Below, piece by piece: positions 47,650 to 62,386 of a DNA stretch of 64,000 bases (the first letter of the stretch is position 1; every line of letters starts with the position of its first letter). The stretch spans positions 124,001-188,000 of the forward strand of contig JAPLLG010000008.1 in assembly GCA_026387665.1 (NCBI GenBank), read 5' to 3'. The notes under the pieces were generated by a model. That model worked only from the letters and a program-made list of their open reading frames with translations, was not told the DNA's origin and made no database searches. The translations under genes and the position numbers were made by a program. This DNA comes from Nitrospirota bacterium. GTDB taxonomy: Bacteria; Nitrospirota; Nitrospiria; Nitrospirales; Nitrospiraceae.

Positions 47650-48366
47650 ATGATCGAATGGCTCAAACAGCCTGGTTTTTTTGGCACCCATGCCACGGTC
47701 GGGGCGGACATGAGTCAGCTCATGGCGACGTTCTTTACGGGGCTCTTCGTGATTGGCTGGATCCAGGCGCGGAGACGCCGGGCTGATGCCCACCATTGGA
47801 TGATGCTGGGCGGGATGATCGCCATGGTGGCCTTCTTCATGAGCTACTATTTATTCCGCCAATTGGGCGTGCTGGCCTTTGAGGGGAAGGAAGGATTTGG
47901 CGGGTCGCAGGCCCTCTACGATTATGTCTTCATCCCTGTCCTCACGTTGCACATTGTGCTGGTCATTCTCGGATTGATCATGGCGATTTACATGATCGTG
48001 CTGGGTTTCCGCTCTCAACAAGTCGTCGATGGGGCCAGATCGCTCAGGGAAGCGCTGTTACTGACGACCTGGAGGAAGGTCGGGCTGGTCTTCGGCAGCC
48101 TGACCGCGCTGGTGATGCTCTTGTTCTTCTCTCGCGTCGCGACCGCCGGTTTCTCCATGCGGAAATTCGAAGTCTATCTGAGCTTGCTGCTGCTGATCGC
48201 CATTGTCTTCTCGGTCGAGATGACGATCCAGCGGATTTGGCCGAACGGCGCGCGCCGCCATCGGGCGCTTGGCCTGTTCACGATGATCGTCTATTGTGTT
48301 CTCTTTGTGACCGGCACCACCACCTATACGATGCTCTATCTTTTGTATCCGGGAAAGATCGGATGA
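47650..48366 (+). CDS. DUF420-type membrane protein
   Basis: A 238-residue integral membrane protein. ATG 47650 follows AAGGA. Six or seven hydrophobic helices are visible. HHWMMLGGMIAMVAFFMSYY, IPVLTLHIVLVILGLIMAIYMIVLG and the HRALGLFTMIVYCVLFVTGTTTYTMLYLLYP end are the DUF420 pattern, a family found beside haem-copper oxidase assembly genes. Conserved His residues lie at helix ends. It precedes the bd-like oxidase cluster, consistent with an assembly role. No repeat or frameshift is seen. Confidence 0.8.
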   Translation: MIEWLKQPGFFGTHATVGADMSQLMATFFTGLFVIGWIQARRRRADAHHWMMLGGMIAMVAFFMSYYLFRQLGVLAFEGKEGFGGSQALYDYVFIPVLTLHIVLVILGLIMAIYMIVLGFRSQQVVDGARSLREALLLTTWRKVGLVFGSLTALVMLLFFSRVATAGFSMRKFEVYLSLLLLIAIVFSVEMTIQRIWPNGARRHRALGLFTMIVYCVLFVTGTTTYTMLYLLYPGKIG

Positions 48367-48969: not shown

Positions 48970-50019
48970 ATGCTACATCGAATGGCATTGCGAGTCTTGC
49001 CCAGCCTCAGTCTGGCCGTTACGGAAGACTCTGTGCGCAAGCAAAAGCGGATCGTCATGTTTGTGCCGGGGCTGGTGGCTTTCGTGGTCTATCGGCTGGC
49101 CAAGCTGTTCTTGCCTCTGTCGGAACCGATCGTCTTGTTGCTGGTCAGCGGCCTGGTTGCGGTGGTCACATCGTTGCTTGCCTATCGCGTCGGTCGCGCC
49201 GCTGTCTGGGGTACGATCCTTCGAGAGGACAGGAGCCGTTTGCTGTTCTGGCTCGGAGGCTGGATCGGGTTTGTCTATGGGGTTCAGTTGTCTCTGCTGG
49301 TCCTGGCGTTGCTCTGGCTCGTCGGCTATGGCTATCTCCAGCATCCGGATGGGCCTGCCATGATGGCCATCATCATTTCCTGTACGGCAGTGGCGCGCGA
49401 TGCTTTTGAGATCGGGCATGTGAGGAAAGTGGCCCTCCTGGGCCGCCTCTTTCCGACGTTTCCCGATGGGCTGGCCCTCCGCACGATGGTCGGCAGCCAT
49501 GCAATGGAACTGGCGCCTTGGGTTGCAGTTGGTCTCATCATTGGAGCATTGGGCGCCTCGCTGGGACACCTCGTCGAGGCGAGCCAGGGAGCGGCCCTGG
49601 TGCAGTTGGCCTCTGTATCGGTGTTGGGGGGGCTGGTTTCTCTCTGTGCCTACTTTGGCGGGCTTCGTCCCAACTCGTCATGGACCCAAGGACTGTTCCA
49701 GACGAAGGCGGGCGAATTGCTGAAATATTGGTGGTGGCCGGGACTCGCCTTTGTTGCGACCTACTATCTGGTGGCGGTTGGGTTTGTGCTGTTCCTCTTG
49801 AGGCAGCCTGGCATTCCCACTACGTATGCGATGGCTAGTGGCGGATTCGTGACCGGCATGATGGCTCTGTATTGTTACTATCTCGGGTTTCGCCGGCAGG
49901 TTGAAGAACAGCAGGGGCAGACGATGTCGAGCGCCTTGCTCCGCTGTCCCTTCGTCATGGGAATCCTTGGCAAGTCATCTGGTGCGGGCGTCTCTATGAC
50001 GGCCGGTTCGAAGGTGTAG
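48970..50019 (+). CDS. Membrane protein preceding the bd-like oxidase subunit
   Basis: A 349-residue integral membrane protein with about eight hydrophobic segments. ATG 48970 or 48982 is possible and ribosome sites are weak. VVYRLAKLFLPLSEPIVLLLV, YRVGRAAVWGTILREDRSRLLFWLGG and DAFEIGHVRKVALLGRLFPTFPDG are visible. The size is near that of CydB (~340-380 residues) and it ends 3 bp before the oxidase-like gene, but I cannot match the CydB motifs. Function is unknown; candidate second subunit or assembly factor. Confidence 0.65.
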   Translation: MLHRMALRVLPSLSLAVTEDSVRKQKRIVMFVPGLVAFVVYRLAKLFLPLSEPIVLLLVSGLVAVVTSLLAYRVGRAAVWGTILREDRSRLLFWLGGWIGFVYGVQLSLLVLALLWLVGYGYLQHPDGPAMMAIIISCTAVARDAFEIGHVRKVALLGRLFPTFPDGLALRTMVGSHAMELAPWVAVGLIIGALGASLGHLVEASQGAALVQLASVSVLGGLVSLCAYFGGLRPNSSWTQGLFQTKAGELLKYWWWPGLAFVATYYLVAVGFVLFLLRQPGIPTTYAMASGGFVTGMMALYCYYLGFRRQVEEQQGQTMSSALLRCPFVMGILGKSSGAGVSMTAGSKV

Positions 50020-50022
50020 TCT

Positions 50023-51894
50023 ATGGGTATGAAGAAGAGAACATACGGAGTTGTGTGGGTTTCTCTCCTCCTGTTGGTGGTGTTGGCCGCCGCGTGGATT
50101 GGCTGGGGCCTTCAGGGCCCGGCTTTTGCTGAGGAGAGCACCGACCTCTATTTCAAGACGCCTGGAACTCCCCAGGGGCCTCCCGCCCCTTCTCCGCAAG
50201 AGACCGTCTATTCGCGCATCGGGTCGTTCGACAGCCGATTGCTCGTCTGGTTCGTCACGCAGCAACATACCTACTTCGGTGGGTTCGTCCTTGCGCTGCC
50301 AATTTTCTGTGTCCTGCTGGAGTTCCTGGGGTTGAGCAGCAGAAAGCCGTCGCTGGCCCTTCGCTATGATGGCCTCGCGCGGGATTTAGCCAAAGTGGCG
50401 CTGCTTGCCCTGTCTGTGACCGCGGTGGTCGGGAGCCTCATGCTGGGGATGTTTATCTGGTTCTATCCCAGCTTCATGAAGTATATGGGCGGGACGTTCA
50501 AGTCCTTTATGCCGCTGTATGCGATCGTGTTTGTCGGGGAATCGCTGCTGCTCATCCTCTATTACTACAGCTGGAACCGGTTGGCTGAGCCATCGTTGAA
50601 GTGGGTGCATGCCTCGATCGGCGTGTTGAGCAATCTGTTCGGGGCGGCCCTGCTGTTCCTGGCGAATTCCTGGTCTGCCTTCATGATGGCGCCGGCCGGC
50701 GTCGATGCGCAGGGGCGGTTTCTGGGGAACGGATGGCATTTGCTCCATTCGGCCCTCTGGAATCCGTTGAATGTCCATCGATTCCTGGCCGATATCATGT
50801 CCGGCGGCGCGGTGGTCCTGGCCTATGCCTGCTATCGTTTCTTTACGAGTAAGACGGACGAAGAGCGCGCCTATTTCGATTGGGTAGGGTACGTCTTTTT
50901 GTTTGTCACGGTCTGTGCGCTTTTGCCGATGCCCTTTGCCGGCTATTGGTTGATGCGGTCGGTCTATGCCTTCAGCCAGAGCATGGGTGTGACGATGATG
51001 GGCGGATTGCTTACCTGGCTCTTCGTGGTGCAGGCCCTCTTGATCGGTGCCTTGTTTCTCGGGGTGAACTATTATCTCTGGCAGAGCATGGCGCGCCTTC
51101 GCGGAGGGGAACGGTATCAGCCTTACTATCAGTCGTTGCTGGCGGTGCTGATGTTGGCCCTGTTCATTTGGCTGACGCCGCATACCGTCATGATGTCGGG
51201 CAGTGAAGTGAAGGCGATGGGCGGTTCGTCGCATCCTGTGGTCGGCAACTACGGCGTGATGTCTGCCAAGAATGGCGCGGTCAATATCTTGATTCTCGTG
51301 ACCACCCTGAGTTTCATCTACTACCGACGCGCCAATCGCACGATGGTCGTATCCTGGGTCAGGAAAGGGAACTTCCTCATCGGGGCGCTGTTCCTGCTCG
51401 GTTCCATTAATATTATTTACCTCTCGGTCTATGGATTCTATTTGCCGGCGAAGCTCCGCGTCGGACTGTCGTCCCCGCAGGCTGTGACGACGTTGACGGT
51501 GCTGGTGGTCGGGCTGGTGATCAATCGTATGATGCTCAAGGGGGCGCTCGTCCATGGACCGGTCCAATGGGGGAAGATTTCGGTCAGGGGCATGGTGGGC
51601 CTCTTCGGATTGGCTGCGGCCTTCTCGTGGGTCATGGGTCTCATGGGCTATATTCGTTCCTCCGGACGGTTGGCATGGCATGTGAGTGAGGTGATGGCCG
51701 ATGTGTCGCCCTGGGCCTTTACGCCGGACTTTGCCTTTGCAGCGAAGATGGTGACGCTCAACATGGTGGTGTTCTGGGGGGCGGTCTTTGCGCTTTTCTG
51801 GATGTGCCAGCGCGATCAGTTGCCGGTGATGGGGGAAGAGTTGGCCGAGGGGGCTGCGCCGGTCCTAGCTCCGTCATCGTCGCAAGAGGCCTGA
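50023..51894 (+). CDS. Cytochrome bd-like oxidase subunit I (first copy)
   Basis: A 623-residue membrane protein with an N-terminal helix and ~14 more. CydA-like motifs: QQHTYFGGFVLALPIF, then ANSWSAFMMAPAGVDAQGR, then WHLLHSALWNPLNVHRFLA, and TPHTVMMSGSEVKAMGGSSHP. These correspond to the haem-binding His and the ANGWMQxPxG region of CydA, with extra His. It is ~100 residues longer than CydA and lacks the usual Q-loop. It starts 3 bp after the preceding membrane protein. Published Nitrospira genome work proposed a bd-like protein as terminal oxidase. This copy lacks a His found in the other copy (FMPLYA against FRPVMH). Confidence 0.85.
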   Translation: MGMKKRTYGVVWVSLLLLVVLAAAWIGWGLQGPAFAEESTDLYFKTPGTPQGPPAPSPQETVYSRIGSFDSRLLVWFVTQQHTYFGGFVLALPIFCVLLEFLGLSSRKPSLALRYDGLARDLAKVALLALSVTAVVGSLMLGMFIWFYPSFMKYMGGTFKSFMPLYAIVFVGESLLLILYYYSWNRLAEPSLKWVHASIGVLSNLFGAALLFLANSWSAFMMAPAGVDAQGRFLGNGWHLLHSALWNPLNVHRFLADIMSGGAVVLAYACYRFFTSKTDEERAYFDWVGYVFLFVTVCALLPMPFAGYWLMRSVYAFSQSMGVTMMGGLLTWLFVVQALLIGALFLGVNYYLWQSMARLRGGERYQPYYQSLLAVLMLALFIWLTPHTVMMSGSEVKAMGGSSHPVVGNYGVMSAKNGAVNILILVTTLSFIYYRRANRTMVVSWVRKGNFLIGALFLLGSINIIYLSVYGFYLPAKLRVGLSSPQAVTTLTVLVVGLVINRMMLKGALVHGPVQWGKISVRGMVGLFGLAAAFSWVMGLMGYIRSSGRLAWHVSEVMADVSPWAFTPDFAFAAKMVTLNMVVFWGAVFALFWMCQRDQLPVMGEELAEGAAPVLAPSSSQEA

Positions 51895-51913
51895 ACAGCG
51901 AAAGGGTTGGAGT

Positions 51914-52570
51914 ATGAATCGAGGGGTGATGATCCAGAGATATCTCGCAGTCTGGCTGGTGCTCTGTGGAAGTTTCATGATGCAGGGCGCGGTCTCGGCG
52001 CAAAACCAATCCTTGGTCTTGGAGGATTTCCAGGCGAAAGAAACGGACGGGTTCCCCTCGAATTGGGACCATGAGAATCAACGAAGCCATTCCAAGGGGC
52101 GTGATGCCTATAAGATTCAGACTGAAAACGGCGTGAGTTTTCTGGCGGCGAAGGATGCGGGGCAGCGGATCAAGAAAAAGAAGATCGATTGGGACCCGAA
52201 GGCCTTTCCTGTCCTCACCTGGCGCTGGCGGTTGAATAAGGCCGCGGCGGGAACGGAGCCGATCGCGGCGATCTATGCCTCGCTGGATACGGATTTGATG
52301 TTCATCCCCGTCTTCACGAAGTATATCTGGAGCGCCACCAAGCCTGAGGGGGTACTGAGCGAGGGGGGCATGTTTAGCGGCGCGGAGATCGTAGTCCAGA
52401 GCGGCACCAAGGATGTCGGGCAATGGATTGAAGAGCGGGTCAACGTCTATGAAGACTTCAAGCGGATTCACAAGCATGAGCCGGCTGCCAAGGCTTGGGG
52501 TATTTCGATTATTGCCGGGCCTGGCGTCGAAATCGATTTCGGTTCGCTGGTGGCTAGCGCAGGGCACTAG
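51914..52570 (+). CDS. DUF3047-type periplasmic protein
   Basis: A 218-residue exported protein. The signal peptide is [40 protein letters not shown] and the region [19 protein letters not shown], then [11 protein letters not shown], match the DUF3047 pattern (beta-sandwich with a conserved WxW). [34 protein letters not shown] is also family-like. Start ATG 51914 follows GAAAGGG. It lies between the bd-like subunit and a small membrane protein and belongs to the cluster by spacing. Its reaction is unknown. Confidence 0.78.
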
Positions 52571-52590
52571 AGCATTGGAGTGTAGTTAGC

Positions 52591-52989
52591 ATGGCCGAAT
52601 CCGGTACGGAGCAAGATTGGTCGATGAAAGTGCCCGATATCCTGTTCGGCGTGGCCGTGATGGGAACCGTCGGGACGCTGATCGGGGTCATCATGGGCGG
52701 CGGCATCCTGCCGGTTGCGAGCGGGGCAGGGCTCCTGCTTGGCGGGGTCATCGGCTTTATGGGTGGACGACGTTTTCTAGCGAGTATTTTGGTGGGCACA
52801 GTGCTGGGCGGACTGTTGGCCTGGTTCATTGCCGGGCCGGAGCGAATATCCGTGGGCGCCGGGGCCGGCGCTGCTATGGGCGGATTTCTCGGGGTGCAGA
52901 TTTCGATGTTGCTGGATATGCGCGCGGCCAAGAAGGCCGCATCTGAGTCGGCGGATTCCTCCGTGTCACGCACAATTGAAGGAGCCTGA
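52591..52989 (+). CDS. Small multi-helix membrane protein
   Basis: A 132-residue protein with three or four Gly-rich hydrophobic segments ([55 protein letters not shown] and [13 protein letters not shown]) and a charged tail ([18 protein letters not shown]). The Gly-zipper style resembles small membrane proteins with unknown function. ATG 52591 follows GGAG. It sits 21 bp after the DUF3047 gene and 6 bp before the SUMF1-type gene, so it is part of the same transcript. No known family recognised. Confidence 0.7.
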
Positions 52990-52995
52990 GACGCG

Positions 52996-53922
52996 ATGGA
53001 AAATAAGAAGGTCCTCATCGGCTCGATCATTTTTGTCTTTGCGTCGTTCTTCCTGCTGATCGGCTTGCTGGTCAATGAGTCGTACAAGGCGAAGAAGATG
53101 AAAGAATTGGTCCTCTCGATCAAGACCGAGGCTCGTTCTGCGCCGAGCAGCGTCCCGTCGCAGGATTACTCCATGTATAAAACGAAGATCGGCGACGAGG
53201 GCCGCGAGATGGTGCAGATCCCTGAAGGGCCCTTCATCATGGGCAGCAAGGATGGGGACCCGGACGAAGCGCCGGAGCGGCAAGTGTTTCTCAAGGCCTT
53301 CTACCTCGACAAGAAAGAGGTCTCGCAAGAGGAATATGCCCGGTTTGCCAAAATGACGAAGCGGCCGCTGCCCAAGATCGAAGTGTTTGAAGACGATCAA
53401 TCCAAGCTGCTAAAGCCGGAGTTTGCGGCGATGAGCGTCACCTGGGACGAGGCGGGGGCCTATTGCAAGTGGGCGGGCAAGCGCCTTCCCACGGAAGCAG
53501 AATGGGAAAAGGCCGGCCGCGGCGAGGGGAAGAGGAGGTATGCCTGGGGCGATACCTTTATCAGCGGCCGCGCCAATGCCAATGTGGACGGAAGTGAAGA
53601 TGGGTATCGGTATCTCGCGCCTCCCGGATCGTTCGAGTCCGGGCGAAGTCCCTATGGCATCTATGACATGACCGGGAATGTCGCGGAATGGGTTGCGGAT
53701 TCGTATGACGAGCACTACTACCAGAAAGCGCCCTACCGTGATCCGAAGGGGGCTGAGGCTGCAGAGGATTTGAAGGTCGTGCGGGGAGGGTCCTGGCGGG
53801 AGACCGAGCATAATGCGCGGCTCTCCAAGCGATTCGCCGCGAAACATTGGCGGGCGGACATTACGATCGGGTTCCGTTGTGCCAGCGATATGGAGGTTGG
53901 AGACAGCCCCGCGGCGCCATAA
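52996..53922 (+). CDS. SUMF1-fold (FGE-sulfatase-like) membrane-anchored protein 1
   Basis: A 308-residue protein. One N-terminal helix (VLIGSIIFVFASFFLLIGLLV) anchors a SUMF1/formylglycine-generating-enzyme-type domain. The fold is recognised from MVQIPEGPFIMGSKDGDPDEAPERQVFLKAFYLDKKEVSQEEYARF, the AYCKWAGKRLPTEAEWEKAGRG motif, and GIYDMTGNVAEWVADSY...VVRGGSWRETEHNARLSKR...IGFRCASD. The catalytic Cys pair of FGE is absent (GGSWRETEHNARL), so it is not a sulfatase-activating enzyme. PvdO/NirV-like non-catalytic relatives also use this fold. It lies in the oxidase cluster. Confidence 0.85.
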   Translation: MENKKVLIGSIIFVFASFFLLIGLLVNESYKAKKMKELVLSIKTEARSAPSSVPSQDYSMYKTKIGDEGREMVQIPEGPFIMGSKDGDPDEAPERQVFLKAFYLDKKEVSQEEYARFAKMTKRPLPKIEVFEDDQSKLLKPEFAAMSVTWDEAGAYCKWAGKRLPTEAEWEKAGRGEGKRRYAWGDTFISGRANANVDGSEDGYRYLAPPGSFESGRSPYGIYDMTGNVAEWVADSYDEHYYQKAPYRDPKGAEAAEDLKVVRGGSWRETEHNARLSKRFAAKHWRADITIGFRCASDMEVGDSPAAP

Positions 53923-53927
53923 CAGAC

Positions 53928-54806
53928 ATGCTCGAAACTAAATTCAAGGTCCTGTTTCTTCTTGCCGTCCTCGCCTTTGCTGCGCTCCCTATTATGGGGA
54001 TCATCCGCGGCACCACCTTGACGCCGTTTGAAGATTCTCCAAACGACTCTACAGATGTGGCTCCGTTGGAGCCGGCCGATCCTGCTCAGGTTGCTCGCGA
54101 AGAGCCGGTCCAGGAAGAACTGGTTTCGATCCCGGCTGGCCCCTTTATCCGTGGGACCGATCATGACGGATTTGATGAACGGCCGCAGCGCATGTTGCTG
54201 CTCGATGCCTTTGCGATCGATCGGTATGAAGTGACCAACTTTCAGTATCAGCAATTTGTGGAGGCGACCGGCCATCGTAAGTCCGGCCCCCCCTCCCGCT
54301 ACGCCAAGAACATGAGCAAGATGCGCAGCCTCAATCAGCCCGTGGTCTATGTGTCATGGGAAGATGCGGAGGCCTATTGCCAGTGGAAGGGACGGCGGCT
54401 TCCCACTGAGGCGGAATGGGAGAAGGCGATGCGAGGGACGGATGGCCGTCTCTGGCCCTGGGGTGACGTGGAGCAGCCCAATGGAGCGAATTGGGCCAGG
54501 GTGCAGGACGGCCATGAGGTTGCCGCCGCTGTCGGCGCCGTCCTGACCGATAAGAGCCCCTACGGCGTCATGGATGGAGCAGGCAATGTGATGGAGTGGG
54601 TGGCCGACTGGTACGCGGAAAGTTATTTCGCTGAGGCTTCCGAACAAAATCCTCAGGGGCCTGATTCCGGTACCTATCGGGTGCTCCGAGGAGGGGGCTA
54701 TGCGACAACGGGAGCCGATATTCGCATCACCAGTCGGAGTAAAATGGTTCCCGACTTCCGCGATGAAACGATCGGGTTTCGTTGCGCGGTTTCGGGGGCA
54801 AAATGA
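53928..54806 (+). CDS. SUMF1-fold membrane-anchored protein 2
   Basis: A 292-residue paralogue of the preceding gene. ATG 53928 begins with an anchor (MLETKFKVLFLLAVLAFAALPIMG); the longer frame from 53847 overlaps the previous gene and is rejected. SUMF1 motifs: LVSIPAGPFIRGTDHDGFDERPQRM, AIDRYEVTNFQYQQF, AYCQWKGRRLPTEAEWEKAMRG, MDGAGNVMEWVADWY and VLRGGGYATTGADIRITSRSK. Again the catalytic Cys residues are missing. The pair probably arose by duplication and presumably binds rather than modifies a partner in the oxidase cluster. Confidence 0.84.
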   Translation: MLETKFKVLFLLAVLAFAALPIMGIIRGTTLTPFEDSPNDSTDVAPLEPADPAQVAREEPVQEELVSIPAGPFIRGTDHDGFDERPQRMLLLDAFAIDRYEVTNFQYQQFVEATGHRKSGPPSRYAKNMSKMRSLNQPVVYVSWEDAEAYCQWKGRRLPTEAEWEKAMRGTDGRLWPWGDVEQPNGANWARVQDGHEVAAAVGAVLTDKSPYGVMDGAGNVMEWVADWYAESYFAEASEQNPQGPDSGTYRVLRGGGYATTGADIRITSRSKMVPDFRDETIGFRCAVSGAK

Positions 54807-54838
54807 GAGAGAATTTGAAGAGGGAAACCCCGATAAAT

Positions 54839-54943
54839 CTACAAGAAATCAAAGTAGTAGAGAATGAGAAACACGGCCAAAATTATATTGACAACCATTC
54901 CGGCCAAAACTATAATGTCGAACACTTTTGAGTTCTTAATCAT
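54839..54943 (-). CDS. Putative 34-residue membrane peptide, antisense
   Basis: Read leftwards, a small frame starts at ATG 54943 after AGGGGA at ~7 bp. It encodes a Lys-rich start and one long hydrophobic helix (IIVLAGMVVNIILAVFLILYY). It is too short for a sure call, and the stretch is AT-rich, so chance is possible. It is the only reversed element in the oxidase cluster, ahead of two small forward membrane genes. Could be an independent small subunit or a regulator. Confidence 0.4.
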   Translation of the reverse strand: MIKNSKVFDIIVLAGMVVNIILAVFLILYYFDFL

Positions 54944-55068
54944 CGATTTTCCCCTGATTTTTCGTGAACGGCAAAGAATTTTGAATAACATTACGGGCGT
55001 CTGTGTGTCAAGAAATTCGCTGATACGACCCAGGTAGTTATTTTCCCCCATCAGGAGAAGGAGATACG

Positions 55069-55191
55069 ATGGCAACGGCAACGGTGGATAGCGAGTTTAA
55101 GGTCAAAGTCGGTCGAATGATTTTCTACATCACTTGTGCGGTTGGGCTGTGGTTTTTCTATTGGTTCGCAGGAATTCAGTGCCCCTGCTAA
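55069..55191 (+). CDS. Small 40-residue membrane protein 1
   Basis: A 40-residue protein (MATATVDSEFKVKVGRMIFY... then one helix, IFYITCAVGLWFFYWFAGI) ending in QCPC. Start ATG 55069 follows GAAGGAG. It has one transmembrane helix with aromatic residues and a C-terminal Cys pair CPC. Its size and position resemble small accessory subunits of terminal oxidases such as CydX or CcoQ. It is 264 bp downstream of the second SUMF1-type gene and 63 bp ahead of another small gene. It is too short to be found by standard length cut-offs. Confidence 0.7.
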   Translation: MATATVDSEFKVKVGRMIFYITCAVGLWFFYWFAGIQCPC

Positions 55192-55253
55192 GTGCGGGCC
55201 GCTGTCTTGCTGTGATTTTTTGAACGTCTGCAAGTTGTGAGGGAGGGCGTCTG

Positions 55254-55376
55254 ATGGGCCAGACAATTGTGTATGTGATCGTGTCGCTGGTGATTTGCGT
55301 TGCCTATTTCACAGCGGTTGACCATTTCTTGATGGATTCGCAGGGACTGGACTTCTGGTATCTGTTCCGGAAGTAG
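55254..55376 (+). CDS. Small 40-residue membrane protein 2
   Basis: A 40-residue protein with one helix (TIVYVIVSLVICVAYFTAV) and a polar tail ending in LDFWYLFRK. ATG 55254 follows GAGGGAGG. The aromatic, positively charged C terminus suggests that end lies in the cytoplasm or at the interface. Located directly ahead of the second bd-like oxidase gene, with the same length as the neighbouring small protein. Probably a small structural subunit of the oxidase; not provable from sequence. Confidence 0.7.
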   Translation: MGQTIVYVIVSLVICVAYFTAVDHFLMDSQGLDFWYLFRK

Positions 55377-55457
55377 GCCTTGGGGGTCGTTCTGCGTTGA
55401 GTTGAGTTTGCAGGGATCGCGATGAGTCTTTTTCGGAATGCATTAAGGAGGTATCCC

Positions 55458-57371
55458 ATGGGTTTAGTAGCCGGGAAGAAGTTGTTCTCAATCATGGCGC
55501 TGTGCGCGATGATTGGCCTTCTCCTGCTCCCCATCGCCGTATCGCTTCCGTCACTGGCTATGGGCACCGATGCGCCCGATGCGGTGAAGAAGGATGGTGA
55601 GGCGAAGGTTGAGAAGGGGAGAGACGTCTATTATAAGACGGAAGGTATCGTGGCCGGTGCCCCTGCGCCGAAGACTGTCGATGGTCCTCGGGATTATCCT
55701 CGGTACAATTTCGAGAGCCGCGTGTTGCTCTGGTTTGCGAATCAGCAGCACCTCTATTACGGAAGTTTCGTGCTCGCGGTTCCGATTTTCTGCATGGTCA
55801 TTGAGTTCATGGGGGTGGTGACGAAGGATAAGGCGATGGCGAAGCGGTATGACCAGCTCGCCTATGACTTCATCAAGATCAGTTTGACGGCCTATTCGCT
55901 GACCGCCATCCTGGGCGGTATCCTGATCTTCACCTTCCTGACGCTCTATCCTGCATTCTTCGGCTATCTCTCTAGCATCTTCCGCCCGGTCATGCATATC
56001 TATGCATTGATGTTTGTGGCGGAGAGCGGCACCCTCTACATCTATTATTACGGCTGGGACAAGATGCGGGAAGGGTTCCTCAAGTGGATTCACTTGAGCC
56101 TGTCCGTGATCTTGAACGTGATCGGCACCCTGCTCATGTTCCTGGCGAACTCCTGGATCGGCTTCATGATGTCGCCTGCCGGCGTCGATGAACAGGGCCG
56201 GTACCTGGGGAACATCTGGCACGTCATCCATACCGCACTCTGGAACCCGCTCAATGTGCACCGCATTTTGGGTAACATGGCGTTCGGCGGCGGTGTCGTG
56301 GCGGCCTACGCGGCCTATAAGTTCCTGGCGTCCAAGACGGATGAAGACCGCGCCCACTACGATTGGATGGGGTATATCGCCATGGCGCTCGGCGTGGCTT
56401 TCTTGATCCCCTTGCCATTCGCCGGTTATTGGCTGATGCGCGAAGTGTATGCCTATCGTCAGCAGATGGGCATTACGCTCATGGGCGGTCTCTTGGCCTG
56501 GCTCTTCATCATTCAAGCCACCATGATCGGTATTCTCTTCTTGAGCACCAATTACTATCTCTGGCAGGCGCTCGGTCGGATGCGCGGTGCGGAGAAGTAT
56601 CAACGGTACATTAAGTATCTCGTGTTCGTGCTTTGTTGCGGCTACCTGGTGTTCATTACCCCCCACACGATCGTCATGACTCCCGCTGAGCTCAAGGCGA
56701 TGGGCGGGCAGCAGCACCCGGTGCTGGGTAACTATGGCGTCATGTCGGCCAAGAATGGTGGTATCAACGTCATTATCACCACCACCATTCTCAGCTTCGT
56801 CTGGTACATGCGAGGCAATAAGGTCTCGACGGTATCCTGGTCGAAGTTCGGCAATATTTTCATGGGCATCTTCTTCGGTTGCGCCTATTTCAATATTATC
56901 GGGCTCGCGGTCCTCGGCTATTACATTCCAGCCAACGTGCGGGTCGGTTTGTCGGTGCCTCAGGTGGCGACGACCTTGTCCTGCCTCTTCTTCATGTTTG
57001 CGCTCAACAGCTTCATGATGAAGGGCGCCAAGCAGATGGGGCCCATCGAGTGGGGCAAGATTTCCGCTCGATCACAGTATGCCTTGATCATGCTCGCGAC
57101 GGCCTTTACCTGGATGATGGGGTTGATGGGCTACATTCGCTCATCGGTTCGGTTGTTCTGGCACGTGAATGAGATCATGCGCGATAACTCTCCCTGGGCC
57201 TATACCCATACGGTGGGATTCGCGGCGAACATGATTTCCTTTAATGTGTTGTTCTTCTGGATCAGCATCCTCTTTGTCTTCTGGCTCGGCAGCCTCGGGA
57301 TAAAGAAGGCGCCAGTTGAAGCGAAGGCAGGGGTTCCAGGCGGCGCACCGCAGCCAGCTGGGGGCCACTAA
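55458..57371 (+). CDS. Cytochrome bd-like oxidase subunit I (second copy)
   Basis: A 637-residue membrane protein. ATG 55458 follows AAGGAGGTAT, a near-perfect ribosome site; the frame from 55422 is rejected. Paralogue of the protein at 50023 with the same motifs: QQHLYYGSFVLAVPIF, ANSWIGFMMSPAGVDEQGR, WHVIHTALWNPLNVHRILG, TPHTIVMTPAELKAMGGQQH and WFHVNEIMRD-like WHVNEIMRDNSPWAY. It has an additional His (FRPVMHIYALM). Strong translation signals suggest this is the major, highly expressed oxidase subunit. The haem and possible copper ligands among the conserved His need testing. Member of the bd-like family seen in Nitrospira. Confidence 0.88.
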   Translation: MGLVAGKKLFSIMALCAMIGLLLLPIAVSLPSLAMGTDAPDAVKKDGEAKVEKGRDVYYKTEGIVAGAPAPKTVDGPRDYPRYNFESRVLLWFANQQHLYYGSFVLAVPIFCMVIEFMGVVTKDKAMAKRYDQLAYDFIKISLTAYSLTAILGGILIFTFLTLYPAFFGYLSSIFRPVMHIYALMFVAESGTLYIYYYGWDKMREGFLKWIHLSLSVILNVIGTLLMFLANSWIGFMMSPAGVDEQGRYLGNIWHVIHTALWNPLNVHRILGNMAFGGGVVAAYAAYKFLASKTDEDRAHYDWMGYIAMALGVAFLIPLPFAGYWLMREVYAYRQQMGITLMGGLLAWLFIIQATMIGILFLSTNYYLWQALGRMRGAEKYQRYIKYLVFVLCCGYLVFITPHTIVMTPAELKAMGGQQHPVLGNYGVMSAKNGGINVIITTTILSFVWYMRGNKVSTVSWSKFGNIFMGIFFGCAYFNIIGLAVLGYYIPANVRVGLSVPQVATTLSCLFFMFALNSFMMKGAKQMGPIEWGKISARSQYALIMLATAFTWMMGLMGYIRSSVRLFWHVNEIMRDNSPWAYTHTVGFAANMISFNVLFFWISILFVFWLGSLGIKKAPVEAKAGVPGGAPQPAGGH

Positions 57372-57453
57372 TCATCGTTAGGATCTTGGTTGGGGGGAGA
57401 GGGGGCGCGGTGTGCGTGCCTTCCTCCTACCCGAACCTCAGGAGGATAAAACC

Positions 57454-58767
57454 GTGGGCGATCTGATAAATGAAGCGATCTCAATAGGGTGGCCGCTGCT
57501 CGCGCTTCTCGCGAGTCTCTTCGTGTATTCCCTGGTAACTATCAGCGATCCCGCTGCAAAGAAACGCGCGACGTTCAAGCTCTTTATTGGCATGATTGGC
57601 GCGTTCATGTTGTTGTTGGCAATCGCGCACTACAAGACGAGCTTTTACGACGCGAACCGGATGTTGCCGGTTTCGCTGGTGCTCATCACCGCCATGTGTT
57701 TCATGATGGGAATTTATTTCCCTAACCAGGCTGCGTTGCTGAAGATCGGTGGCTTCATGTTCTTTGTCGCCGCTGGCCTGTCAGGATATGGGAATTGGCT
57801 GCCGCAGGTTGAAGGCGGCTTTCCCCCCAAAGAAGAAAAGATTCAGTTTGAGTCGATGACGGCGCAGCAGCTGGCCGACGAAGGCGAAAAGATCATCTTC
57901 GGCGGCATCGGGCAAAACAAGGTGCAGGGCGCAATCGGAAAAGGGCAGTGTCCGCTCTGCCACGCGTTCCACAAGGGTATGTTGGGCGAGCGCGCCCCAA
58001 ACCTTGACGGCCTTCCTGAGCGTGCGGGCAAAGAGCGCTTAGAGGATCCGAAGTACAGCAAGGGCAAGCCGCTGGCCAGAGAATATGCGCAGAAGGAGTC
58101 CTTTCCTGGGGCTGGGACTGCAGAGAATGGCCAGGAGTATATCGCTGAATCCCATTCCTGCCCGAGCTGTTACGTCGTTGCAGGGTATGGCGTCAAGGGC
58201 ACGAACGATAAAGAGAGCCCGATGCCTGCCATCCACAAGCCTCCGATCTCGTTGAGTCTCCCGGAGTTGGCCGCCGTGGACACCTGGTTGTATATCCGCG
58301 AAGGACGCGATGCTCCGACATACGAAGAGATCATCAAGTCGTATGAAAAGTTTGTTCCAGAGGCGGATCGGCCAAAGCAGCAGGACGATAAGGCAGCTGG
58401 GGCACCCAGCGCTTTGATGGCGGACGGCACGGAGCCGGTCGATCAGATTTTTGCAAAGGCCCAGTGCGTAGCCTGCCACACGATCCCCGGCATCCCGGGC
58501 GCGGTCGGCACCATCGGTCCGAAGCTCGAAGAGGGGACGAATGCCCCGCTTCGCATCAAGAGTGCGGACTATAAGGGCGGCGCAAAGACCGTTCCGGACT
58601 ACATCATGGAGTCGATCGTGTCACCGAGCGCCTATGTGGTGAAGCCATTCCCGGATAATACGATGCCGAAGGTGTTCGGGCAGAAGCTCAGCGCCGGGGC
58701 GTTGAAAAAGATCGTCGATTATCTGTCTCAGGTGAAGGCGGGATCGCCGCCGCCGAAGATTTCATAA
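57454..58767 (+). CDS. Membrane-bound dihaem cytochrome c with a degenerate third haem motif
   Basis: A 437-residue protein. GTG 57454 is preferred (AGGAGG 8 bp upstream) over GTG 57412. Three or four N-terminal helices (WPLLALLASLFVYSLV, LFIGMIGAFMLLLAI, MLPVSLVLITAMCFMMGIYF, LLKIGGFMFFVAAGL) precede a periplasmic part with haem motifs CPLCH (166-170) and CVACH (338-342). Between them lies CPSCY (236-240), a haem motif in which His is Tyr (codon TAC, one base from CAC). It follows the bd-like gene closely and probably feeds electrons to it. Confidence 0.85.
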   Translation: MGDLINEAISIGWPLLALLASLFVYSLVTISDPAAKKRATFKLFIGMIGAFMLLLAIAHYKTSFYDANRMLPVSLVLITAMCFMMGIYFPNQAALLKIGGFMFFVAAGLSGYGNWLPQVEGGFPPKEEKIQFESMTAQQLADEGEKIIFGGIGQNKVQGAIGKGQCPLCHAFHKGMLGERAPNLDGLPERAGKERLEDPKYSKGKPLAREYAQKESFPGAGTAENGQEYIAESHSCPSCYVVAGYGVKGTNDKESPMPAIHKPPISLSLPELAAVDTWLYIREGRDAPTYEEIIKSYEKFVPEADRPKQQDDKAAGAPSALMADGTEPVDQIFAKAQCVACHTIPGIPGAVGTIGPKLEEGTNAPLRIKSADYKGGAKTVPDYIMESIVSPSAYVVKPFPDNTMPKVFGQKLSAGALKKIVDYLSQVKAGSPPPKIS

Positions 58768-58810
58768 TCTTGTCTGTCTACCTCTTTTGTTGAGCAAAGG
58801 GAGTTCGCCG

Positions 58811-59848
58811 ATGAAAGCATTAATGTCAGTCGGGGCACTCATAGGAGCAATTGGAATACTCCTGCTTGCCGGAATGATTCTGGATATCGTTCCGTCAAAT
58901 ACCGTGCGCCTGGTCGAAGGCTACATGCCCATGCAAGTGCTCTTTGAACTCACGCTGTTTGTGGCGGGGTTTACAGGGTTAAGCTACATGTTGGGCACCA
59001 TGGGAATGGCGTTCCCTCGCTTCTGGCAGGGGATTGCCTTTTGGTGTTTCATCCTCCTGTACCTGAAGTTCCGCGTCTACCCGCCGATTCCTTTCAGTGT
59101 TCGCGCCATGTACGGGACGGTCTCACTCGTCGCCGTCTTTATGTGGGTCTCTGCGAACGAGGAAGATTGGAAGAAGTTCAAACAGCCGATCATGAACATC
59201 TTGGATGCCCAGAGTGGGGTGAACAAGCTGTTGCGGTATGCCTATCTGGTCCTGTTGCCGATTCTGATCGGCGGCTTCTCCTACAACGCGATGGTCCCGA
59301 AATCAGAGGAGCCGATCGAGTTGAGGACGGTGCATCCTGCGCCGCCAGCCAGCACGAAGGTGCATGGAAAGACCTACACGCTGCAAACGTCGCAGAATCC
59401 TTATCGCGTGAACCTTGAAGGCAAGTTCGATCAAGAGTACAGCAACGCGAATATTGTGGAGCAGGGTATGGGCCGGTTGATGAAACCGAATGCCAACCCC
59501 TGGGATAAGGATGCGCAAGGGTACCTCAAGTATGTGCGTGAGGGCGGAGAGATCTTCTTTCAGAATTGCCATTTCTGCCACGGCGATAACCTGAACGGAC
59601 GTGGTCTCCATGCCTTCGCGTTCAACCCGATTCCGGCAAACTTTACGGATCCGGGAACGATTGCACAATTACAGGAAACGTTCATTTTCTGGCGCGTAGC
59701 CAAGGGTGGAATCGGGTTGCCGAACGAAGGGTTCCCCTGGGCCTCCGTGATGCCACCGTGGGAACAGCACCTGACGGTAGATGAAATCTGGAAAGTGATT
59801 TTGTTCGAATATTGGCACACGGGGTATTATCCCCGGACCTGGGACTAA
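58811..59848 (+). CDS. Membrane-bound monohaem cytochrome c
   Basis: A 345-residue protein. ATG 58811 follows AAAGGGAG. Four to five N-terminal helices (MSVGALIGAIGILLLAGMI, LFELTLFVAGFTGLSYML, FWQGIAFWCFILLYLKF, LRYAYLVLLPILIGGFSY) precede a periplasmic cytochrome domain with one CHFCH motif (253-257) followed by GDNLNGRGLHAF. The likely axial Met is in WASVMPPWEQHLT. Similar to the C-terminal cytochrome domain of bc-type complexes in layout. It lies directly after the dihaem protein, and the two probably work together as electron entry of the oxidase. Confidence 0.85.
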   Translation: MKALMSVGALIGAIGILLLAGMILDIVPSNTVRLVEGYMPMQVLFELTLFVAGFTGLSYMLGTMGMAFPRFWQGIAFWCFILLYLKFRVYPPIPFSVRAMYGTVSLVAVFMWVSANEEDWKKFKQPIMNILDAQSGVNKLLRYAYLVLLPILIGGFSYNAMVPKSEEPIELRTVHPAPPASTKVHGKTYTLQTSQNPYRVNLEGKFDQEYSNANIVEQGMGRLMKPNANPWDKDAQGYLKYVREGGEIFFQNCHFCHGDNLNGRGLHAFAFNPIPANFTDPGTIAQLQETFIFWRVAKGGIGLPNEGFPWASVMPPWEQHLTVDEIWKVILFEYWHTGYYPRTWD

Positions 59849-59898
59849 TCGTTCACGGGAATTGACAGCCAACCTGGATTTACGACATGAGGGAAACC

Positions 59899-61674
59899 AT
59901 GAAGAATTCGTTTAGTCTGAAGGCAGGAATGCTCCTCACAGCTGCCTTTGGAGTCATCCTGGTCGCCGGAAGCACCGGGAGCCTAGCGTTTGCCGACGAG
60001 GCCCTTCCTGAGGGCTTCAAGAAAGGCGAATTAGCGCCTGAGCCTGCTGCCGATATGATCGAAGCAGGAAAGCGGGTCTACTTCACCAAGTGCGTGTGGT
60101 GTCACGGAGTCGATGGCGCGGGCGATGGCCCAGGCGCCGATCGTCTCTGGCCTCGTCCCCGCAACTTCAACCAGGGGACGTTCAAGATTCGGCGCACGGC
60201 CAGCGGTGAGTTGCCGTTGTTCGATGCCAAGAAGCCTGTCCCTGGCCAGAATGACCTGTTTGAGACCGTGACTCACGGTCTCCCGGGTTCTGCCATGCCA
60301 TCCTGGGAAGGCATCCTGACGGAAGAGCAACGACTCCAAGTACTGTCTTTCGTCACCACCCAGCTGGTGAAGGACCGGAAGTTTACCGACAAGCAGTCCG
60401 AAGCTCAGACTGTGTTGCAGCTGGACGATCTGAAGCCGATTCCTGCGACAGAGGAGAGCGTGAAAAAGGGCGCGGAGCTCGTTAAAGAGAAGAAGTGCGT
60501 CGAGTGTCACGGCACGGATGGCCGTGGCGACGGCAACGCGTTCAATCTGAAGGACGACTGGGGCTTCTCGATCCAGCCTGCTGACTGGCACAAGTGCTGG
60601 AACTTCAGAGGCAGCCGGCAAGATCCCTATAACGTCAAGAACATTTTCCGGACGTTTTCGACCGGAATCAACGGGACCCCGATGCCCTCGTTTGCTGACA
60701 ACAGCACGGTTGAAGAACGGTGGCACATTGCCAACTTCGTGAACTCGCTGTGTGAGCGCGAAGCTGACGGTACGCCTCTCGCCATCGACCCGTTGGCGGA
60801 CAAGCCGAAGATCAATTTCGTGGTGTCCTCAGGGGTGGTCGAAGGAGAGATTCCTGCTGATCCAGAGCATGAACTGTGGAAGAACCGGGCTCGCCGGTAT
60901 GTCGCGATGGGCGGGCAGATCACCCATAAGCCAAGAAATTTCGTGAACCGGATCGACGATATCTGGGTGAAGTCGCTCTATAACGACAAGCATGTCGTGT
61001 TCATGTTCCAGTGGGACGACCGGACGAAGAGCGTCGCCACAGGGAAGTTGCCTTGGGCTCCGACCGAGGTCAACATCGATGTGAAGGAACAGGACCCGAA
61101 GACGGGCGAAGAGGGTTCAATCGCCGCGCATCAGAACAACTACACGGTCTACAACGATGCGATCGCCATGGAAACTGCTGTGAAGTGGAAAGAGCTTCCA
61201 GCCCCGATTAAGCCGCGGTATTTGTTCGGCAGCAACGAACAGTACCCAGTCGACATTGTGAAGTGGGAAGCCGACGGTTCCCTCCGTGCCTTTGAGGGCA
61301 CGGGCTGGGACAAGGACTTCGCAGAACGCGATACGTACGAAGAGAACATCAAAGTCCTTCACTCGGAGTGGAAGGATGGCCGATGGACGGTGATCATTCA
61401 ACGTCCGTTGGGCAACAAGAAGGATCAGGATTACGACGAAGATACCTTCTTCGAAATGGGACAGTACATTCCTACCGTGTTCTTCGCCTGGGATGGCCAC
61501 AACGGTGACGCAGGACGGAAGATGGCCGTGTCGGCCTTCTACTACACGTTCCTGGAGCCGCCGACGCCTCGCGAAGCCTACATCTACCCAGTTGTGATCG
61601 CCTTCGGGGTGGTCTTGCTGGAAGGTTGGGTTCTCACCAGACGCTCGAACAAGCGGAAGGGAAAGACCCTCTAA
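59899..61674 (+). CDS. Dihaem cytochrome c with NxrC-type haem-binding domain
   Basis: A 591-residue secreted protein. ATG 59899 follows GAGGGAAA; ATG 59887 is the alternative. After the signal (FGVILVAGSTGSLAFA), two class I cytochrome domains carry CVWCH (65-69) and CVECH (200-204). The rest resembles the ethylbenzene-dehydrogenase/NxrC haem-b domain (WKNRARRYVAMGGQITHKPRN, VVFMFQWDDRTKS, YTVYNDAIAMETAVKW, FAWDGHNGDAGRKMAVSAFYY). One C-terminal helix (AYIYPVVIAFGVVLLEGWVL) anchors it. It may join nitrite-oxidising enzyme to the oxidase. NxrAB are not in this window. Confidence 0.85.
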   Translation: MKNSFSLKAGMLLTAAFGVILVAGSTGSLAFADEALPEGFKKGELAPEPAADMIEAGKRVYFTKCVWCHGVDGAGDGPGADRLWPRPRNFNQGTFKIRRTASGELPLFDAKKPVPGQNDLFETVTHGLPGSAMPSWEGILTEEQRLQVLSFVTTQLVKDRKFTDKQSEAQTVLQLDDLKPIPATEESVKKGAELVKEKKCVECHGTDGRGDGNAFNLKDDWGFSIQPADWHKCWNFRGSRQDPYNVKNIFRTFSTGINGTPMPSFADNSTVEERWHIANFVNSLCEREADGTPLAIDPLADKPKINFVVSSGVVEGEIPADPEHELWKNRARRYVAMGGQITHKPRNFVNRIDDIWVKSLYNDKHVVFMFQWDDRTKSVATGKLPWAPTEVNIDVKEQDPKTGEEGSIAAHQNNYTVYNDAIAMETAVKWKELPAPIKPRYLFGSNEQYPVDIVKWEADGSLRAFEGTGWDKDFAERDTYEENIKVLHSEWKDGRWTVIIQRPLGNKKDQDYDEDTFFEMGQYIPTVFFAWDGHNGDAGRKMAVSAFYYTFLEPPTPREAYIYPVVIAFGVVLLEGWVLTRRSNKRKGKTL

Positions 61675-61707
61675 CGTTCATTTGAACGAGAGAGTCTGAA
61701 GAAGTAT

Positions 61708-61742
61708 GAGGGGGTGGGGTAACCCACCCCCTCTTTCTTTTT
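61708..61742 (+). terminator. Rho-independent terminator closing the oxidase cluster
   Basis: A perfect 11-bp stem (61708-61718 with 61723-61733), 4-nt loop GTAA, followed by TTTCTTTTT. It starts 34 bp after the NxrC-like gene. Confidence 0.92.
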
Positions 61743-61765
61743 GGCGCGGCTGCATTGAGGACACG

Positions 61766-62386
61766 ATGGAGATCGATGTAACCGGCATTCTGCTCGCCGG
61801 GGGCAAAAGCCGGAGAATGGGTGAGGATAAGCGGCATCTCCTTGTGGGGGAACAGACCCTCCTTGAGCGAGGGCTGGCAGTGCTCCGCTCAGTCTTTCAG
61901 GATGTCCTGGTGGTCATTGCGCAGGACAGCCCTCCGCTCGACGTCGAAGCGCACGTGGTGCGCGACCTGGTCCCTGATTGCGGCAGCCTCGGTGGGCTCT
62001 ACACGGGGCTAATGCAGGCCACCACGCCCTATATATTTGTCGTGGCCTGCGACATGCCGTTTCTCGATCCGGCAGTCATTGCCCAATTCACGAGCCGGCG
62101 AGCCAACGCTGACATCGTGATGGCGAAGCTTGCCTCCCGCATGCATCCGATGCATGCCTTGTATAGCAAGCGATGTTTGCCTGTCGTTGAACGGATGATT
62201 CAGGCGCGACAGCTCAAGATCCAGGAGATGGTATCGGACCGGTCTCTCCATGTGCGCTATGTGACTGAGGATGATCTCCGGGCTATCGACCCTTCCGGAC
62301 GTTCCTTCCAGAACGTGAATACTCCAGCAGACCTGGAGGTGGCACGGTCACTGCTGTCTCAGTTGCCTCCACCCAAGCCCGTATAG
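61766..62386 (+). CDS. mobA: Molybdenum cofactor guanylyltransferase MobA
   Basis: A 206-residue GTP:molybdopterin guanylyltransferase. ATG 61766 follows GAGG at 5 bp. The nucleotide-binding loop GILLAGGKSRRMGEDKRHL, the CGSLGGLYTGLMQATTPYIFVVACDMPFLDP stretch and RSFQNVNTPADLEVA match the family. Together with MobB and MoeA at 21-23 kb it makes the bis-MGD cofactor of nitrite oxidoreductase-type enzymes. Its position right after the respiratory cluster supports that use. The next gene starts 8 bp later. Confidence 0.93.
   Translation: MEIDVTGILLAGGKSRRMGEDKRHLLVGEQTLLERGLAVLRSVFQDVLVVIAQDSPPLDVEAHVVRDLVPDCGSLGGLYTGLMQATTPYIFVVACDMPFLDPAVIAQFTSRRANADIVMAKLASRMHPMHALYSKRCLPVVERMIQARQLKIQEMVSDRSLHVRYVTEDDLRAIDPSGRSFQNVNTPADLEVARSLLSQLPPPKPV

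Follow-up and report, generated by a model that had tools for sequence, protein, structure and literature searches.

A conserved gene cluster of Nitrospirales encodes two CydA-like proteins that lack a pair of histidines kept in a paralogous oxidase candidate

Introduction

An open question of the nitrogen cycle is how periplasmic nitrite oxidisers deliver electrons to O2 and also drive them uphill to quinone; bd-like proteins are the main candidates. A gene cluster at positions 48970 to 61674 of a 64,000-nucleotide stretch of DNA (the window; contig JAPLLG010000008.1, assembly GCA_026387665.1) bears on this question. It encodes two proteins that resemble CydA of cytochrome bd, here called bd3 and bd4, together with three c-type cytochromes, and a first-pass annotation had taken it for an oxidase complex fed by cytochrome c and not by quinol. 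The source genome belongs to the Nitrospirales and is 2.64 Mb in size and 99.8% complete; two further paralogues, bd1 and bd2, are encoded on another of its contigs.

Nitrospira moscoviensis has four bd-like proteins. The genes for bd-like_1 and bd-like_2 lie near a bc complex and alt_nxrC_1, and bd-like_2 is the putative terminal oxidase; bd-like_3 occurs with alt_NxrC_2 and two cytochromes c, and every Nitrospira genome has a second copy close by, bd-like_4. In N. moscoviensis, transcription places the genes of this locus in the top 40 (PMC6606698). The Nitrospina homologue has 14 helices, has no Q-loop, and is missing the quinol residues, and the bd-like cluster is syntenic in nitrite oxidisers and anammox bacteria (PMC3578206). 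The cluster in the window is the already published bd-like_3/bd-like_4 plus alt_NxrC_2 locus of Nitrospira, now called the OR-N type, and it occurs throughout the nitrite-oxidising Nitrospirales. We assign bd3 and bd4 putatively to the OR-N type, through synteny and the Nitrospirales literature.

Results

A constant cluster in Nitrospira

The features on which the argument depends are the following.

50023..51894, + strand: bd4, second CydA-like protein (OR-N type); PF01654, E 8e-17; a member of the published bd-like_3/4 pair
55458..57371, + strand: bd3, first CydA-like protein (OR-N type); PF01654, E 8e-20; open reading frame open from 55422
56712..56714, + strand: bd3 Q431, at the position of bd2 H396; Gln in all nitrifier bd3 scored
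57156..57158, + strand: bd3 F579, at the position of bd2 H545; Phe in all nitrifier bd3 scored, His in the bd3 of a family negative for nitrite oxidoreductase (NXR)
57412..58767, + strand: cyc451, 451-residue membrane-anchored diheme cytochrome c; PF00034; CPLCH, CPSCY, CVACH
58787..59848, + strand: cyc353, 353-residue membrane-anchored monoheme cytochrome c; PF13442; 34% identity with cyc239, its counterpart beside bd2
59887..61674, + strand: alt_NxrC_2, alternative NxrC; two CxxCH motifs and a type II dimethyl sulfoxide (DMSO) reductase gamma (haem b) domain; PF09459

A search based on bd3 found at least 80 Nitrospira-type loci among the matches listed, the close ones coming from Nitrospira metagenome-assembled genomes and N. 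moscoviensis. In a sample of 54 full-length Nitrospira loci, every gene between 48970 and 61674 is present in 53 or 54, and gene order is identical in the loci inspected. Because the genes recur with such constancy of content and order, chance assembly of the cluster is excluded. Gaps between its genes are mostly shorter than 100 bases, and the bd4 gene lies about 5 kb from the bd3 gene in nitrifiers.

bd3 and bd4 retain CydA haem ligands and have no Q-loop

Both proteins score above the cut-off of PF01654, with a match confined to positions 2-241 of the 418 in the profile and so to the N-terminal half. They are 51% identical to each other and share the motifs QQHxYxGxFVLA, ANSW, WHxxHxALWNPLNVH, and TPHT. 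At 637 (bd3) and 623 (bd4) residues they are about 100 residues longer than Escherichia coli CydA, with 522, and extra helices replace the Q-loop, leaving no counterpart of K252/E257. The motifs, the extra length, and the missing Q-loop had been described correctly in the first-pass annotation. Residue numbers for bd3 are counted from 55422, although the start at 55458 (M13 of the long reading frame) is preferable, M13 being conserved at 90% or more.

The first-pass annotation had proposed aligning both subunits with CydA structures to place the haem ligands. When OR-N sequences and CydA were aligned as profiles, the match covered the full length (probability 99.4, E 1e-20). CydA H19, H186, and E107 correspond to H110, H280, and E201 of bd3 and to H82, H252, and E173 of bd4, and are kept across the four paralogues; the haem-ligand histidines H110/H82 and H280/H252 are conserved in essentially all rows of the alignment. 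Both proteins thus combine the CydA-like transmembrane domain with the H19/H186 ligands that mark the cytochrome bd superfamily. Elsewhere the resemblance is looser. In the GRQPW motif of CydA only the R448 and W451 positions are recognisable, R448 corresponding to bd3 Arg577, and E99 aligns with bd3 Tyr194. Tentatively, given the weaker C-terminal alignment and a poor structure model of bd3, the haem b595 ligand E445 falls at bd3 Ser574, and the b558 ligand M393 has no clear equivalent. That model, made with AlphaFold2 from 46 sequences (pLDDT 60, pTM 0.48), is too poor for placing haems; in a fold search with it, CydA chains were the nine best matches in the PDB at a TM-score of about 0.3, which is of use at the family level only. 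Unlike the other three paralogues, in which a Glu is invariant, bd4 has S313.

The complex is probably linked to cytochrome c and not a quinol oxidase, to judge from its genes, because it has no Q-loop, no CydB, and dedicated c-type cytochromes. Sequence therefore supports the part of the first-pass reading that concerned cytochrome c and leaves O2 reduction, the other part, as a possibility. CydB (PF02322) is absent from the 99.8% complete genome, which likewise has no haem-copper oxidase above cut-off, the single weak match scoring 19 bits.

Two histidines separate bd2 from bd3 and bd4

The first-pass annotation had linked the cluster to the bd-like oxidase proposed for Nitrospira. That protein (NIDE0901-like, bd-like_2) is instead a paralogue, encoded away from the cluster on contig C7 beside separate cytochromes and alt_NxrC_1. 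There the genes run cyc204, bd1, cyc268, Rieske, cytochrome b, a 338-residue protein, bd2, cyc207, cyc239, alt_NxrC_1, and a diheme cytochrome. The series bd2-cyc207-cyc239-alt_NxrC_1 and bd3-cyc451-cyc353-alt_NxrC_2 are paralogous gene by gene, at 42%, 27%, 34%, and 23% identity. Relatives of bd2 occur in 39/39 Nitrospirales genomes searched, with at least four copies in nearly all of those outside the NXR-negative family described below.

bd2 has His at positions 396 and 545 in all nitrifiers scored. The corresponding residues are Q431 and F579 in bd3, and S403 and A551 in the bd4 of the window; a wider set of bd4 sequences has Gln or Ser at the first position and Ser, Ala, or Gly at the second. 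In each of ten genomes in which all four genes were read, bd2 is His,His and bd3 is Gln,Phe, and a larger set agrees. The His set of the site that has been proposed for NIDE0901, and likened to that of haem-copper oxidases, would by our mapping include these two positions and is accordingly incomplete in both bd3 and bd4. Gln and Phe replacements have been noted for the clusters of Nitrospinae, Nitrospirae, and anammox bacteria (PMC8026999); by our own mapping, they would fall at the bd2 H396 and H545 sites. The earlier remark that one copy lacks a His probably refers to H312 of bd3, which is Y284 in bd4. This is a minor difference that bd1 shares, and the loss of the two histidines that bd2 keeps affects both copies.

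Median identities against ten genomes are 91% for bd3, 87% for bd1, 83% for bd2, and 77% for bd4. bd3 is therefore the most conserved of the four paralogues, strongly constrained despite missing the two histidines, and such conservation (91% against 83% for bd2) argues that it is not decaying. As a separate observation, bd1 (L085:14524-16194, contig C7) is about 91% identical to its counterparts in most Nitrospiraceae sampled and only 70-72% identical in four genomes of group g2; bd3 exceeds 91% in the same four, and bd1 may have been replaced there.

A family without NXR keeps bd1 and the bd3 module

Within the same order, a family of four genomes, 73 to 96% complete, yielded no NxrA in a direct protein search. 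This family is probably UBA2166, which has been described as the sole NXR-less clade of the order (PMC12342949). Its PF01654 matches are to bd1 and bd3 only: two genomes have both, one has bd1 alone, and one has bd3 and a fragment, the last two being assigned by profile span and not by sequence. None of the four yielded a haem-copper oxidase, a canonical bd, bd2, or bd4. In the two genomes whose loci were read, the bd3 locus consists of one protein of the formylglycine-generating enzyme (FGE) fold, one 40-residue protein, bd3, cyc451, cyc353, alt_NxrC, and MobA, and lacks bd4, the DUF3047 protein, and the 349-residue membrane protein of the Nitrospira cluster; the bc-complex locus has bd1 and lacks bd2. 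The bd3 of this family is Gln,His, that is, the second His is retained.

In a tree, bd3 and bd4 are sister groups, and the bd3 of the NXR-negative family falls on the bd3 side (94/91), which favours a duplication before this family split off, with bd4 lost later. A duplication confined to nitrifiers is disfavoured by this placement, although it is not rejected (approximately unbiased test, p-AU 0.1).

More distant relatives retain both histidines. The bd3-like proteins of deeper families are His,His, including those of families f4 and f9, which have the order bd, cyc, cyc and no close NxrA in the genome tested; an NxrC-like gene follows in f4, and the contig ends in f9. The module is thus independent of NXR, which weakens a pure anchoring role and supports an oxidase ancestry. 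The four-gene core of bd, two cytochromes, and an NxrC-like protein probably began as a cytochrome c-fed O2 reductase.

Three further loci deserve mention. In G054, contig 5 (L160) carries the module core with NosL downstream, the genome encodes an NxrA-like protein at 39% identity, and the bd protein has Tyr and Phe at the two His positions; for a link between Phe579 and NXR outside Nitrospirales this is a single case. In a genome of family f8 (L152, G006 contig 140) an OR-N gene immediately follows COX2, COX1, and a gene of the UbiA family (CtaB-like). At the third (L164, G018 contig 45) two short and very divergent CydA-like reading frames, of 440 and 408 residues, adjoin each other.

Cytochromes and accessory proteins

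The three cytochrome genes carry 2, 1, and 2 CxxCH motifs. A CPSCY motif in cyc451, at 58159, was considered as a third haem domain and rejected, as comparison with cyc207 places it inside the first cytochrome c domain. The motif varies as CPSC[Y/F] or CPNCY, and nearly every Nitrospirales copy read, those of the NXR-negative family among them, retains its Cys pair; it could form a disulphide or a metal site. alt_NxrC_2 has the NxrC-like haem b domain of type II DMSO-reductase gamma subunits, although its score against TIGR03477 (E 6e-17) is below the curated cut-off (61.7 vs 169.9 bits).

The other genes of the cluster, and its neighbours, are as follows.

47650..48366, + strand: DUF420 membrane protein; PF04238, E 1e-16; conserved upstream neighbour, 53/54 loci; of a family presumably related to oxidase-assembly proteins such as CtaM/YozB
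48970..50019, + strand: 349-residue polytopic membrane protein; no Pfam or NCBIfam match; 53/54 loci
51914..52570, + strand: DUF3047 protein with one N-terminal hydrophobic segment; PF11249, E 8e-16; 53/54 loci
52591..52989, + strand: Gly-rich small membrane protein; no family; two hydrophobic segments; 53/54 loci
52996..53922, + strand: FGE/SUMF1-fold protein 1, membrane-anchored; PF03781, E 2e-54
53928..54806, + strand: FGE/SUMF1-fold protein 2; PF03781, E 7e-57; start revised from 53847
55069..55191, + strand: 40-residue protein with a single transmembrane segment (CydX-sized); 54/54 loci, median identity 85%
55254..55376, + strand: 40-residue protein with a single transmembrane segment (CydX-sized), directly upstream of bd3; 53/54 loci and the NXR-negative family
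61706..62386, + strand: MobA-like protein; PF12804; conserved downstream neighbour, 54/54 loci and the NXR-negative family

The co-directional run therefore exceeds the cluster both ways, with DUF420 and PCP_red upstream and MobA downstream. Family matches agree with the first-pass account of SUMF1-fold proteins, of which there are two, a DUF3047 protein, and three cytochromes, one of them NxrC-like. That account had also described a membrane protein of CydB-like size and no recognisable CydB. The absence of CydB extends to the genome, but the 349-residue protein is rejected as a CydB candidate, having no similarity to CydB in sequence or fold; its AlphaFold2 model (pLDDT 79, pTM 0.79) found no match in the PDB (best E 0.38, TM-score about 0.2).

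The two FGE-fold proteins are 40% identical to each other, and the NXR-negative family has a single one where the Nitrospira cluster has two. Protein 1 reads RGGSWRETEHNA where the Cys-bearing motif is expected and protein 2 reads RGGGYATTGADI at the same site; in both, the catalytic Cys pair that follows RGGS in a formylglycine-generating enzyme is absent. Both 40-residue genes are under purifying selection, with 716 synonymous vs 332 non-synonymous codon differences in the first and 995 vs 761 in the second.

Discussion

With about even confidence, we read bd3 and bd4 of nitrifiers as serving a specialised, NXR-linked electron transfer that would not include O2 reduction. We favour this reading because both histidines are missing, because the same variant is reported in anammox bacteria, anaerobes that to our knowledge do not respire O2, and because an intact paralogous module lies beside the bc complex. 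bd3 and bd4 would occupy the places of CydA and CydB in an OR-N-type membrane complex, with the membrane-anchored cytochromes c and the NxrC-like haem b/c protein facing the periplasm. Electrons may pass from the NxrC-like protein to the monoheme cytochrome, the diheme cytochrome, and then the haem ligated by H280, and would not come from quinol. O2 reduction in nitrite oxidisers appears to fall to the paralogous bd2 module, and bd3 and bd4 could be left to dock NXR or to pass electrons uphill to quinone, roles that earlier literature proposed. A more definite version, which we hold only tentatively and think rather unlikely to be right in full, is that bd3 and bd4 of nitrite oxidisers reduce no O2 and instead connect periplasmic cytochrome c with the quinone pool, an uphill electron transfer that would serve CO2 fixation; their ancestor would be an oxygen reductase whose two histidines were replaced at about the time NXR was acquired.

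Several observations weigh against such a loss of O2 reduction. The two missing histidines are not CydA haem ligands, and both proteins retain the ligands H19 and H186 of CydA. No site for quinone was identified. According to PMC8026999, two Nitrospinae without any haem-copper oxidase carry the Gln/Phe variant. In the NXR-negative family, where bd1 and the bd3 module are the only oxidase candidates detected, bd3, together with bd1, probably reduces O2, with its first His replaced by Gln even there. The strongest competing explanation, which is that of the first-pass annotation, is a second cytochrome c-fed terminal oxidase of the CydAA' type: the three cytochromes would supply bd3 and bd4 with electrons for O2 reduction. 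OR-N enzymes have been predicted to be cytochrome c oxidases (PMC10839748), and PMC10839748 and PMC12342949 suggest OR-N1 and OR-N2 as partners in a CydAA' cytochrome c oxidase. Manganitrophaceae, which have no genes for nitrification, possess a related complex, TO_1, that PMC9040806 regards as a terminal oxidase. E107 is retained beside H19 and H186 in both proteins, and the NXR-negative family keeps bd3 and bd1 with no further oxidase found. We nevertheless give this explanation a substantial chance that falls short of even, since bd3 and bd4 lack two histidines kept in the bd2 of every nitrifier scored, since the Gln/Phe form is reported in anammox anaerobes, and since the published oxidase candidate is the paralogous module that adjoins the bc complex.

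It has also been proposed that such a complex anchors periplasmic NXR (PMC6606698). A chiefly anchoring complex, with little redox chemistry in its bd-like subunits, would suit the NXR gamma-type domain of alt_NxrC_2 and the synteny in nitrite oxidisers and anammox bacteria (PMC3578206). As a sole role this is weakened by the NXR-negative genomes: three of these NxrA-negative genomes keep bd3, and reading of two showed all four genes of the core; f4 and f9 carry all or most of the core although the genome tested has no close NxrA; and the haem-ligand histidines are invariant. We regard it as very unlikely. Another alternative concerns partners, not function, and would pair bd3 with bd1, so that the functional unit spans two loci and bd4 is accessory. 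Only bd1 and bd3 are found in the NXR-negative family, and bd4 shows the lowest conservation among the four paralogues and is without the Glu invariant in the others; but bd4 is encoded close to bd3 in nitrifiers, and the tree allows bd4 to have arisen either before or after the split from the NXR-negative family. Such a pairing seems to us unlikely, if less so than the anchor.

To the published picture this analysis adds the missing His pair of bd3 and bd4, an NXR-negative family with bd1 and the bd3 module only, and the finding that conservation is strongest in bd3. In every nitrifier genome scored, the His pattern sets the putative oxidase bd2 apart from the bd3/bd4 module. Together, this pattern and the NXR-negative sister family indicate which paralogue to purify for which test.

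Comparison with known systems

Compared with CydA of E. coli bd-I, bd3 and bd4 share the N-terminal helices and the positions H19, H186, E107, and R448; they differ in having no Q-loop and no K252/E257, Ser at E445, Tyr at E99, no CydB, and about 100 additional residues. The cluster of Nitrospina and anammox bacteria is closer, with a 14-helix bd-like protein without a Q-loop, the Gln/Phe variant, two cytochromes c, and an alternative NxrC, while a second bd-like copy, DUF3047, and paired FGE proteins are not mentioned in the published descriptions, as far as the available portions extend (PMC3578206, PMC8026999). The bd2 module has the paralogous order of bd, cyc, cyc, and NxrC-like genes but keeps His396 and His545, sits with Rieske, cytochrome b, and bd1, and was not found in the NXR-negative family. 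The closest system is the bd-like_3/4 locus of N. moscoviensis (L055), which matches the cluster gene by gene in content and order, with bd3 92% and alt_NxrC 84% identical. The two loci show no structural difference and are orthologous.

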